This document shows positions 17,597 to 38,630 of a stretch of 64,000 nucleotides of DNA, one piece after another. The notes under the pieces were generated by a model. The model saw nothing but the letters and a program-made list of their open reading frames with translations, did no database searches and had not been told where the DNA came from. The DNA lies in NCBI RefSeq assembly GCF_902170565.1, contig NZ_CABHXX010000095.1:186001-250000 (forward strand), written 5' to 3'. How positions within the stretch are numbered: the first letter of the stretch is position 1; every line of letters starts with the position of its first letter. Origin of the DNA: Yersinia thracica. Its GTDB lineage: Bacteria > Pseudomonadota > Gammaproteobacteria > Enterobacterales > Enterobacteriaceae. A program made the translations under genes and the position numbers.

Positions 17597-17684
17597 GGAG
17601 GGGTGGCCGAGTGGCTGAAGGCAACGGTCTTGAAAACCGTCGACGGGTAACCGTTCGAGAGTTCGAATCTCTCCTCCTCCGCCA
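17597..17684 (+). tRNA. serT: tRNA-Ser(UGA)
   Basis: 88 nt class II tRNA: acceptor GGAGGGG pairs with CTCCTCC, D-arm GGCCGAGTGGCTGAAGGC, anticodon loop CTTGAAA with anticodon TGA between stems AACGGT/ACCGTC, long variable arm GACGGGTAACCGT, T-loop GTTCGAATC and an encoded 3' CCA. It is the homologue of E. coli serT, which also lies after tusE. No direct repeat of its 3' end was noticed downstream within the window. Confidence 0.97.
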
Positions 17685-17978: not shown

Positions 17979-18085
17979 TTAATGCGCTTTTATTATCAGT
18001 CAGTTATCTGTATTGTTCTACAGTTCACTGCCGCACAGGCAGCTTAGAAATCTATCTGACTTCATATTTCTCCTTTTTCATTCCA

Positions 18086-24623: not shown

Positions 24624-25030
24624 AAACCCTGTTGCTGCTGTTATCACTGGTTTTCTCGCCATGGGTGTTGGCCGATTTGGTGGATACTTACCACTTTAGT
24701 TCGCCACAAAATCAACAACAAGCGCTAGCTCTGGCAAAAGAATTACGTTGCCCGCAATGTCAGAATCAAAACTTATTGGAATCAACATCACCCATCGCGC
24801 AGGACTTGCGCTTAGAAGTCTACCGCTTGGTGGAAGCGGGGCACAGTTCTCAGGAAATTATGGCCCTAATGACACAGCGCTATGGTGATTTTGTGCTTTA
24901 TCGGCCGCCGGTGCGCAGTGCCACACTGATACTGTGGTTTGGGCCGGGAGTGCTGCTGGCCTGTGTGTTAGGCGGGTTAGTGCTACGCATTCGAAATCGA
25001 GCGGCCTCAGGTTCGAGAGGGGGGCGCTGA
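24620..25030 (+). CDS. nrfF: NrfF, CcmH-like haem lyase subunit
   Basis: 136 residues with a signal peptide (LLLLLSLVFSPWVLA), the LRCPQCQNQNLLESTSPIA motif (CxxC redox pair of CcmH/NrfF), the RYGDFVLYRPP helix region and a C-terminal membrane segment. Interacts with NrfE and NrfG to act on the NrfA lysine-haem site. Overlaps the preceding gene (ATGA) and the next (TGATG). Confidence 0.94.
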   Translation: MKTLLLLLSLVFSPWVLADLVDTYHFSSPQNQQQALALAKELRCPQCQNQNLLESTSPIAQDLRLEVYRLVEAGHSSQEIMALMTQRYGDFVLYRPPVRSATLILWFGPGVLLACVLGGLVLRIRNRAASGSRGGR

Positions 25031-25689
25031 TGATATTGGCAATCGGGATGGCGATATTATTGCTCATGATTTTAAGCGGCATATGGTGGCCTTGGTCAAG
25101 GCAATATGGCCGTCTGAGTTGGTGCTGGCCGTTGGGGTTGAGCTTGTTGCTCCCGACACTTATTCTGTTGGGATATCAGCAACTAGGCCACTATGCCGCG
25201 GTGCAGCAGGAGGTTTTACGCCAGCAAGAAGCGACGCGATTGAACAATATGTTGGATAAGCAAAGCAGCGACCCAACATTATTTCTATTACAGCAGCGTA
25301 TCCGGCAGTCACCTGATAACAGCGAACTCTGGTTTAGTTTGGCTCAATATTATTTGTATCAGAATGAATTTGAGGACGCGCTGGTAGCATTGCAGCAGAC
25401 AGAACGTTTGCAGGGGGCGAGTGCTTCAATAGATGCTGCCCGAGCGACTCTGTTTTATTATCAGTCAGGGCAAAAAATGACTGAGGATGTGACCTATTGG
25501 CTACAGCAAGCACTGGCAAAAGACCCGCTGCAATATACCGCACTGATGTTGCAAGCCAATGATAACTTTATTCATGCCAAGTATGCGCAAGCTATTGTTA
25601 TCTGGCAGAAAATACTCGAAATCCCTCATCCTGATGTCGATCGCGCGATGATTATCCGAGCCATGACTTTAGCTCGGGCATTGCAGTAG
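25030..25689 (+). CDS. nrfG: NrfG, TPR-type haem lyase subunit
   Basis: 219 residues. Two N-terminal membrane segments (IGMAILLLMILSGIWW and a second around GLSLLLPTLILLG), then tetratricopeptide-like repeats: SELWFSLAQYYLYQNEFEDAL-type and ALLQANDNFIHAKYAQAIVIW-type helices (landmarks read from the sequence). NrfG binds the NrfA C-terminal region. The chosen start at 25030 overlaps the nrfF stop; upstream in-frame codons would only add read-through sequence. Last gene of the cluster; no plus-strand terminator follows. Confidence 0.92.
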   Translation: MILAIGMAILLLMILSGIWWPWSRQYGRLSWCWPLGLSLLLPTLILLGYQQLGHYAAVQQEVLRQQEATRLNNMLDKQSSDPTLFLLQQRIRQSPDNSELWFSLAQYYLYQNEFEDALVALQQTERLQGASASIDAARATLFYYQSGQKMTEDVTYWLQQALAKDPLQYTALMLQANDNFIHAKYAQAIVIWQKILEIPHPDVDRAMIIRAMTLARALQ

Positions 25690-25731: not shown

Positions 25732-25799
25732 AAAAAAAACCCTTACCAATCTCATTTGGTAAGGGATGCCAATTCGGCCAACACCAGGGAAACATTATA
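25732..25799 (-). ncRNA. ArcZ-like Hfq-type small RNA
   Basis: On the minus strand the segment GTTTCCCTGGTGTTGG (25793-25778) reproduces the conserved ArcZ seed. It is followed by a small hairpin (GCC-GAATT-GGC) and a strong terminator hairpin (CCCTTACCAA with TTGGTAAGGG, 25740-25765) and eight Ts, the same order of parts as the processed 3' half of E. coli ArcZ. An AT-rich TATAAT directly precedes the seed: it may be a -10 box or an RNase E site, so the 5' end is uncertain (up to about 25815). The E. coli 5' half is not recognisable. E. coli arcZ lies near arcB, so this is a relocated or second copy. Confidence 0.7.
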
Positions 25800-25838
25800 A
25801 CCGGTTACTTATCATACGATTAATTTAGGTTACTCAAA

Positions 25839-25850
25839 TGACTTAAGTCA
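25839..25850. promoter_or_regulatory. TGACTTAAGTCA palindrome upstream of the ArcZ-like RNA
   Basis: A perfect 12 bp dyad about 46 bp upstream of the seed. On the minus strand it reads TTGAC-TTAA-GTCAT, which has the TGA-N6-TCA core of CRP/FNR-family sites. The rest of the interval to 26187 contains no gene that I can support; a 34-codon frame at about 25873 has no ribosome-binding site. Confidence 0.4.
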
Positions 25851-26187
25851 AGTTTATCAAAATTACATTAATATGTTTAATGTTTATATGTTTTTGAAGA
25901 ATATTTTTTTTACGCTCTTAGCGGCATTAATAGACTTGAAAGTAAGCGGCGGTTTAAATGCGCGACAGGCGACAAGATAAATCGTGAATTGTGACGATAA
26001 AATCGTCCGGGCAGGGCTGTCACACAGCAAAGATTTTTGCGGGTTTTGGCATCCAGATGCGCTATAGGTGCGGAGCAATAATCTTATTGGCATCTTTTTA
26101 GGAGAAAAGTGACATTAGACAGGACTTTTATACCAGAAATGGTTATAACGAAACAATGTTTCATTTCTTGTTCGAAAGGATGTTGAC

Positions 26188-27114
26188 GTGGACCGGAGTC
26201 CTCCGCTTTTTACCCATAAAAAATTTGTTTTTCTTGTCGCGACATTTTGTTGTCTTCTTTGGGGTAGTGCCTATCCGGCGATAAAGAATGGCTATGCGCT
26301 GTTTCATATTGCACCCGATGATATTCCGAGCAAGATGGTATTTGCGGGTTATCGTTTTTTATTGGCCGGAATAGTGTTGCTGCTTTTTGCTGTGGTCAGC
26401 GGCAAGGCGATTGGCCGCCTCAAGAAAAGCCAATATAAGCAAATTGCTCTATTGGGGCTAACACAGACAACCTTACAGTATGTGTTTTTCTATATTGGTC
26501 TGGCCTACACCACGGGGGTTAAAGGCTCTATCATGAATGCGACCGGCACATTTTTCAGTGTGCTATTAGCGCATTATATTTATAAAAATGACCGTCTGAC
26601 ATTCAATAAAATCATTGGATGCGCTTTAGGCTTTGCCGGTGTCATGGTGGTGAATTTTGGTTCCGATATAATGGACTTTAATTTCACCTTGATGGGCGAG
26701 GGTTGTGTGGTGTTGGCGGCTTTTATTCTGTCTGCTGCCAGTATTTATGGTAAACGGATTTCACAAACCATGGATACCACTGTGATGACGGGGTATCAGT
26801 TGGCGATCGGCGGGTTAGTATTAACGCTGGGCGGCTATCTCTTTGGCGGCTATTTAAGTGATTTTGGTTGGCAGGCATTATTGTTGCTGGGCTATTTGGT
26901 GCTGTTGTCTTCAGCTGCATTTGCGCTGTGGAGCTTATTGCTAAAATATAATCGAGTCGGCATGGTAGCGCCATTCAATTTCCTTATCCCCGTTTCTGGT
27001 GCGGTGTTGTCCGCCATTTTCCTGAACGAAAGTATTTTGGAATGGAAAAATGCCATTGCTCTGGTATTAGTCTGTGTGGGGATTGTTTTGGTTAATAAAA
27101 TTAAATCGGTATAG
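26188..27114 (+). CDS. EamA/DMT-family transporter
   Basis: 308 residues with about ten hydrophobic segments in two EamA repeats: residues 10-145 (LLWGSAYPAIKNGYALF) and 165-305 (the second half ending VLVCVGIVLVNKIKSV). Drug/metabolite exporters of this class move amino acids or small metabolites out of the cell; the substrate here is not deducible. GTG start at 26188 with AAAGGA upstream. It stands alone, divergent from the ArcZ-like RNA and convergent with the sensor gene that follows. Confidence 0.9.
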   Translation: MDRSPPLFTHKKFVFLVATFCCLLWGSAYPAIKNGYALFHIAPDDIPSKMVFAGYRFLLAGIVLLLFAVVSGKAIGRLKKSQYKQIALLGLTQTTLQYVFFYIGLAYTTGVKGSIMNATGTFFSVLLAHYIYKNDRLTFNKIIGCALGFAGVMVVNFGSDIMDFNFTLMGEGCVVLAAFILSAASIYGKRISQTMDTTVMTGYQLAIGGLVLTLGGYLFGGYLSDFGWQALLLLGYLVLLSSAAFALWSLLLKYNRVGMVAPFNFLIPVSGAVLSAIFLNESILEWKNAIALVLVCVGIVLVNKIKSV

Positions 27115-38464: not shown

Positions 38465-38630
38465 GAGGTTATTGACAAAGTGCCTGCAGCGGTGAAAACA
38501 GGCAGATCGTAAAGACGCCGTAAATACATCCTTGTAGGCTCGAGCCGCGCCATCCCTGGCGCGGACGCTTTACTCTTCTGCCCGTCCTCACCACCAGAGA
38601 TCGAGTCATTGGGGTTTGTCAGCAGTCTGA
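38465..38630. repeat. YPAL-type palindromic insertion
   Basis: 166 bp flanked by exact 24 bp duplicates. Nested inverted parts, from outside in: GACAAA/TTTGTC, GGTGA/TCACC, GGCAGA/TCTGCC, GTAAAG/CTTTAC, and the core CCGCGCCA-TCCC-TGGCGCGG (38545-38564). Length, palindromic build, and insertion in a terminator after a stop codon fit YPAL elements described in yersiniae. No reading frame inside. Confidence 0.85.

Follow-up and report, generated by a model that had tools for sequence, protein, structure and literature searches.

The minus strand between nrfG and a gene for an EamA-type exporter in Yersinia thracica carries a small RNA (sRNA) locus that shares the seed of ArcZ, and its sequence argues strongly that this is a real gene and a mimic of that seed. 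It lies in a 64,000-nucleotide stretch (RefSeq assembly GCF_902170565.1, contig NZ_CABHXX010000095.1, positions 186,001 to 250,000), which we refer to as the window. We consider it probable that the product is a trans-acting, Hfq-bound sRNA, a primary-transcript equivalent of processed ArcZ, made from a promoter of the CRP/FNR type that most likely answers to FNR. The observations behind this reading are the anatomy of the locus, its conservation, a separate arcZ gene in the same genome, and paralogues with exchanged operators.

Reading the strand against the list of open reading frames (ORFs) confirmed an intrinsic terminator with no gene feeding it, as no minus-strand ORF of at least 80 amino acids was listed between 25732 and 26722. 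The order of the elements, ArcZ seed, then GCC/GGC hairpin, then terminator (25792 to 25732), was also as first described (Table 1). The exact 15-mer seed occurs twice in the 4.31-Mb genome, here and in arcZ, against 0.008 occurrences expected by simple arithmetic, so that the seed in the window is not a matter of chance. The RNA folded with z scores of −2.4 and −2.5 relative to shuffled sequences for the two stretches folded; the small hairpin formed in the shorter one, while in the longer one the leader paired with the same bases. At the sequence level, the locus has the marks of an independent intergenic sRNA gene, namely, its own promoter (with three possible candidates), an intrinsic terminator, and the lack of a feeding gene. 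Its position beside the nrf cluster was borne out as well, the convergent neighbor being nrfG (148.7 bits for the NCBIfam NrfG family, under its cut-off of 306), with nrfE and nrfF adjoining.

TABLE 1 Features of the sRNA locus and its neighbors, in window coordinates
Feature	Position	Strand	Remark
Predicted sRNA, ~71-75 nt	25732..25806	-	5' end inferred, 25802-25806, from promoter geometry and U8 terminator
ArcZ-identical seed TTTCCCTGGTGTTGG	25778..25792	-	Direct read of strand
Small GCC/GGC hairpin (GCC-GAATT-GGC)	25768..25778	-	Begins on final seed base
Intrinsic terminator, 10-bp stem CCCTTACCAA/TTGGTAAGGG, 6-nt loop, U8	25732..25765	-	Stem 25765-25740, eight T 25739-25732
Probable -10 box TATGAT	25811..25816	-	29-34 bases past dyad center
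FNR-like activator site (dyad) TTGACTTAAGTCAT	25838..25851	-	Putative, sequence-based
TATAAT touching seed, probably leader	25794..25799	-	
nrfG, convergent neighbor	24934..25689	+	ORF as listed; true start probably later
EamA-type exporter gene, divergent neighbor	26188..27114	+	ORF list and family search

The original prediction described an ArcZ-like sRNA, either moved or additional, and proposed running the Rfam ArcZ model (RF00081) on the genome. An intact canonical arcZ (L001) was found between arcB (895 bits) and elbB (337.7 bits), which rules out a relocated arcZ and makes the window gene an additional copy. The likeness to ArcZ held for the seed, exact at 15/15 positions of UUUCCCUGGUGUUGG, and for the layout. 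The model did match the arcB-linked gene (53.5 bits), but it gave the window locus only 19.0 bits, the same score as a seedless chance match in the same genome (L002); neither the window locus nor the genome's own arcZ reached the gathering score of 66. Given this score, and a context of nrfG and EamA instead of the arcB-elbB location occupied by L001, the window sRNA is a seed-sharing paralogue or mimic and not ArcZ by score or place. Membership in other Rfam families was likewise rejected, since NsiR1, Cyano-2, STnc260, Pseudomon-1, and snR62 also stayed below threshold. From the inferred start, the predicted leader of 10 to 14 nt leaves no precursor arm for release by RNase E.

We then turned to conservation. 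A 181-base query of the locus found matches in 24 of the 25 Yersinia genomes: in 21, the match covered at least 159 bases, and in three (G001, G009, and G012), only part of the RNA. None of 16 genomes belonging to other families in the order gave a match. A pattern of seed, hairpin, and CCCTTA stem was found in 24/25 Yersinia genomes, seven of which had two copies (reversed control, 0); the locus is no isolated curiosity, and short ArcZ-seed RNAs were found in other genera too. When 21 Yersinia orthologues were aligned, window locus included, 57 of 61 RNA columns were invariant, including all 15 of the seed, and so were 11 of the 14 dyad columns, while the flanks drifted (25/60 invariant columns upstream of the dyad and 3/72 alignment columns past the T-run). 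The terminator stem of L024 showed a compensatory change from C-G to T-A. Among these loci, nrfG adjoins the sRNA in 12/21, with a fragment in L010, and EamA does so in 5/21; a plasmid search with the window sRNA gave no match. A functionless remnant, that is, a decayed or relocated arcZ copy or a stray terminator, would agree with the low RF00081 score; nevertheless, with a near-invariant RNA between drifting flanks, the compensatory change in L024, and an arcZ intact elsewhere, we regard it as most improbable.

Two promoter elements had been pointed out initially, a TATAAT abutting the seed and a dyad further upstream. The dyad was confirmed. The TATAAT is also present, and it is conserved in 20/21 orthologues; however, it is probably transcribed leader and not a -10 box. 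The promoter is probably formed by the FNR-like dyad together with TATGAT, a hexamer found at the -10 position in 18/21 Yersinia orthologues (CATGAT in 2/21 and TACGAC in 1/21). Twelve copies were compared, some FNR-like and some CRP-like. In all of them, the dyad center lies 52 to 54 bases ahead of the seed, and in 11/12 a -10-like hexamer (TATGAT, CATGAT, TATAAT, or TAAAAT) follows 29 to 34 bases past that center; L025 and L032 have TATTAT at 28 to 33 bases, and the one exception is L021, with TACGAC. Were the TATAAT beside the seed the true -10, the RNA would start inside the seed, measure 50 to 55 nt, and lack TTTCCC. We consider this unlikely in spite of the perfect and conserved hexamer, since no -35-like hexamer was seen by eye at the right distance, L021 has TATAAA there, and three paralogues (L026, L027, and L033) lack a TATAAT abutting the seed and carry it instead 29 to 34 bases past the dyad. 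Along similar lines, across 98 copies of the wider class described below, the best-scoring -10 falls 9 to 17 bases ahead of the seed in 48 and 0 to 2 bases ahead in 7.

For the dyad with TATGAT, the spacing fits that of an FNR class II promoter, in which an TTGATnnnnATCAA-like site would lie about 41.5 bases upstream of the start; 7/10 half-site bases agree with the consensus. The fnrS gene of the same genome (RF01796, 109.4 bits) has a degenerate FNR-like site, TTGAGCAATATCAA, centered ca. 42.5 bases upstream of its start, and its -10 lies about one base further from the site than in the window copy (both counted by eye), so that the geometry is nearly the same. At the base of the left half-site that distinguishes FNR (T) from CRP (G), T is present in the window dyad and in its orthologues. 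We regard FNR control of the window sRNA as moderately supported.

Several results weigh against the overall reading of an ArcZ-type sRNA under FNR control. By our own count, the window dyad fits the FNR consensus at only 7/10 half-site positions, closely followed by that of CRP (6/10). Perfect FNR consensus sites of the genome, taken irrespective of intergenic position, showed no -10 enrichment at the window spacing (15/23 sites, both directions). The seed-side TATAAT is kept slightly more often than TATGAT (20/21 versus 18/21), L021 combines a decayed dyad and a TACGAC -10 with an RNA that is yet intact, and G006, one of the 25 Yersinia genomes, lacks the sRNA and contains arcZ alone. The RF00081 score of the window sRNA is, as said, at noise level. 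Finally, a sigma-70 scan favored another promoter, TTGACT (25851 to 25846) and TAAATT (25827 to 25822) separated by 18 bases, whose -35 is overlapped by the dyad, which could therefore be a repressor site there. These last data bear on an alternative in which the RNA and its targets are the same but CRP-cAMP or some other regulator, possibly a repressor covering that -35, occupies the dyad, with a signal other than oxygen through FNR. The near-consensus CRP sites at the dyad position in L026, L027, and L033, and the mixed FNR/CRP dyad of L054, lend it some weight; against it stand the FNR-type T of the window dyad and its orthologues, the similar geometry of the fnrS promoter, and the retention of TAAATT in only 6/21 orthologues, and we judge it rather unlikely.

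Comparison of the dyads among paralogues showed that operators have been exchanged. Judged by consensus sequences, the window type, L025, and L032 have FNR-like dyads and L054 a mixed one; L026, L027, and L033 have CRP-like dyads, and there TATAAT takes the place of the window TATGAT. A third type was found in L028 to L031, which carry a TreR-operator-like dyad, GGGAACGTTCCC (GGGAACGATCCC in L029), over a TTGACG -35. The GGGAACGTTCCC 12-mer occurs at only two places in genome G015, the L028 sRNA promoter and the treR-treB gap; its single occurrence in G000 is likewise at treR-treB (525.7 bits for TreR, scored on the G000 copy, and 906.6 bits for TreB, on the G015 copy). This suggests trehalose control of the L028 to L031 paralogues. 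Given that FNR-like, CRP-like, and TreR-like operators stand before near-identical RNAs, different regulators probably drive them, and an unrecognized set of ArcZ mimics under different sensors would be the best reading of these loci. At least three short copies (L025, L033, and L260) are present in Yersinia ruckeri. Beside its CRP-like copy lies a gene for a quorum-quenching lactonase of the UilS family (L033:68-928, 513.8 bits), and at L025:695-824, at the 3' end of a TnpB gene, sub-threshold Rfam matches to HgcC and RAGATH-18 possibly mark a guide RNA.

The class extends beyond Yersinia. The paralogue-only pattern was found in 44/392 genomes of the family and 21/154 genera (reversed control, 0); three loci, in one genome each (L114, L119, and L120), were judged coding and dropped, leaving 41/392 genomes. 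Of 74 stretches found by scanning named genomes, 13 lay outside Enterobacterales or were judged coding and 61 were kept, with carriers in Serratia, Edwardsiella, Mixta, Izhakiella, Rahnella, Rouxiella, Ewingella, Hafnia, Winslowiella, Prodigiosinella, Erwinia, Pantoea, and Yersinia. With these 16 cores (the three loci plus the 13) dropped by eye as coding or chance, 100 of 116 remained; the loci are redundant by relatedness, and the counts are of copies, not independent origins. All 100 have a T-run within 86 bases past the seed. A strict Watson-Crick stem of at least 3 bp (loop of 3 to 9) starting from the last seed base was present in 69/81 distinct class sequences, against a mean of 11.9 and a maximum of 23/81 in 200 rounds of shuffling; a looser rule, allowing G-U pairs and longer loops, raised this to 79/81. 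Promoter scores were also higher than in shuffled sequences (median, 9.1 versus 6.0), with 46% of 98 copies over the shuffled 90th percentile. Eleven loci, ten of them paralogue loci, were searched against Rfam (E up to 0.5). None of the sRNAs of these ten was assigned to a family of its own, and the ArcZ match of L030 (24.6 bits) stayed under the threshold. A further genus, g135, has a non-ArcZ seed RNA in 22/37 genomes, and in 15/37 (e.g., L225 and L228), a shorter form was seen in which the seed runs straight into a single GCCCGC/GCGGGC terminator hairpin. Two seed RNAs lie near phage genes, L128:1500 near a Phage_antiter_Q gene and L131:1494 near a phage lysozyme gene, and are therefore possibly prophage-borne; the L131 copy had no match in a phage collection. 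In L102, L103, L234, L236, and similar luxR-linked copies, a larger inverted repeat was seen by eye just upstream of the seed. In contrast to the window copy, such RNAs may therefore be longer and have a hairpin at the 5' end.

Many copies of this class are linked to luxR. A quorum-sensing-type luxR gene was found within 1.5 kb of 56/100 distinct copies and of 0/47 arcZ cores, using a hidden Markov model built from seven LuxR proteins of the same loci and counting close relatives separately. In these 56 copies, luxR was in tandem upstream (27), divergent (21), convergent (7), or downstream (1); 11 of the 44 copies without luxR within 1.5 kb had a short flank. Pfam Autoind_bind and GerE domains were identified beside six paralogues (L134, L135, L115, L102, L103, and L122), while the Yersinia LuxR was scored by NCBIfam only (SdiA, 80.5 bits, below the cut-off). 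In 16/21 Yersinia loci, an intergenic transcript-like element stands between luxR and the sRNA, with luxR ca. 560 to 700 bp away; L009 keeps a luxR fragment. By position, we take this luxR to be yenR and the intergenic element to be yenS, with an inferred start. A luxI beside the Yersinia luxR is unproven; a 68-amino-acid end fragment, in L008, had no match among the NCBIfam families.

The presumed yenS carries, on the sRNA strand, the anti-seed CGCCAAYACCAGGG, i.e., the complement of the seed, in 12/16 loci (7 with C and 5 with T); L007, L012, L017, and L022 deviate. In L008, L010, L011, L014, L018, L019, L024, and five more, the motif is followed by a GCCATCTGGATG/CATTCAGATGGC hairpin. The presumed yenS is a possible ArcZ decoy. 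Duplex energies of the presumed YenS beat the best of 200 shuffles in 2/8 loci with the sRNA and in 5/8 with ArcZ, and given this mixed outcome, the case for a decoy is carried by the conserved complement, which is uninterrupted. In the other species, the sRNA has its own predicted promoter downstream of the presumed yenS. The window copy is not divergent from a luxR gene in the manner of YenS or EsaS; no luxR was found within its 3-kb locus (L003/L004). The proximity of luxR and the intervening anti-seed could mean that the sRNA acts mainly locally, by pairing with the neighboring yenS RNA rather than with the mRNAs of the ArcZ regulon. This, too, seems improbable to us, because the window genome has EamA in place of luxR and its sole exact CGCCAAYACCAGGG is the reverse side of arcZ, with the sRNA still intact, and because so few duplexes with the sRNA surpassed shuffled sequences.

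In order to place the window sRNA among known systems, we compared it with published RNAs. The processed 3' form of ArcZ (RF00081) has the same 15-base seed, small G+C hairpin, terminator, and similar length; it differs in the sequences of hairpin and terminator, in its arcB-elbB location, and in its release by RNase E, as opposed to the predicted own promoter of the window sRNA. FnrS resembles it as a short sRNA with an FNR-type promoter of similar geometry, but it is a separate RNA family and the genome has its own fnrS. In Pantoea ananatis, pPAR237 and pPAR238 are Hfq dependent, partly antisense, and near eanIR (PMC6749038), and, as we read them, their primers imply the seed and anti-seed strands, respectively. 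Like the window sRNA, pPAR237 is intergenic with an intrinsic terminator, and it is possibly a relative of it seen in cells; it differs in its place near eanIR, in its 191 nt, and in an antisense partner, pPAR238, that would hold the complement, and in the parts covered, the seed is not remarked upon. The sequence spelled from the pPAR238 primers was not found in the one genome searched (G060). YenS of Yersinia enterocolitica comprises RNAs of 165 and 105 nt with one 5' end, is activated by YenR, inhibits yenI, and has a possible second role in motility (PMC3493969); by our inferred yenS start, the anti-seed falls in the longer form only. YenS resembles the window sRNA as a small RNA of a luxR locus, and the presumed yenS adjoins the sRNA in those 16/21 loci; EsaS of Pantoea stewartii does so through PesaS, a LuxR-activated promoter (PMC13365800). 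Both differ in being activated by YenR or EsaR, and the presumed yenS, as aligned here, bears the anti-seed and not the seed; no such neighbor is present in the window genome. "ArcZ2" in print was discarded as a candidate because it is a Dickeya allele and not a paralogue, and in the parts covered, no seed relation is stated for RmaA/Hrs6 of Erwinia amylovora. In the open-licence literature searched, no paper was found that connects a short ArcZ-seed paralogue with ArcZ.

Two further RNA elements were noted in the window, the Yersinia sRNA Ysr224 on the plus strand (38465 to 38571; RF02770, 123.9 bits) and a single CRISPR-DR4 repeat match (18023 to 18050; RF01317) near a tRNA match (17597 to 17681).

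Transcription of the window sRNA, its binding to Hfq, its activation by FNR, and its sharing of targets with ArcZ are predictions from sequence, and identity of the seeds is what would assign it a function in the ArcZ regulon. A class II promoter would answer to an activator of the CRP/FNR family (most likely FNR, in response to low oxygen), giving an RNA of 71 to 75 nt, presumably Hfq bound, with the seed near its 5' end, the small hairpin, and a U-rich terminator, which would need no RNase E cleavage. According to the ArcZ review, the processed form of 55 to 60 nt is the part conserved for target control, and in most of the bacteria studied, arcZ is repressed by ArcAB when oxygen is low. The window sRNA would bring ArcZ targets under control while arcZ itself is repressed by ArcA, and its oxygen response is probably opposite to that of ArcZ. 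An unprocessed Dickeya ArcZ allele appears inactive (PMC10168573), which speaks for a benefit in making the short form directly.

More tentatively, and as a conjecture that we put somewhat short of even, the ArcZ seed may be a portable word, a minimal seed-hairpin-terminator cassette that members of the Enterobacterales have placed time and again under FNR-like, CRP-like, TreR, LuxR-locus, and perhaps prophage control, bringing many signals to bear on one target set, with a seed/anti-seed switch added at quorum-sensing loci through YenS, EsaS, and pPAR238. At the sequence level, this hypothesis ties the quorum-sensing RNAs YenS, EsaS, and pPAR237/238 to ArcZ, and the switch, if true, would explain the reported second, YenI-independent effect of YenS on motility. 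ArcZ is described in the review as a major posttranscriptional hub (RpoS, FlhDC, and virulence regulators), and deleting arcZ in Y. ruckeri raises rovM and flhDC (PMC12112432). If separate short genes with other inputs do carry the seed as well, this hub may be underestimated or misassigned by the phenotypes of arcZ deletions in the genera that have such genes (Yersinia, Serratia, Erwinia, Pantoea, and others), and oxygen control of the ArcZ regulon may be bidirectional and not simply off in anoxia.
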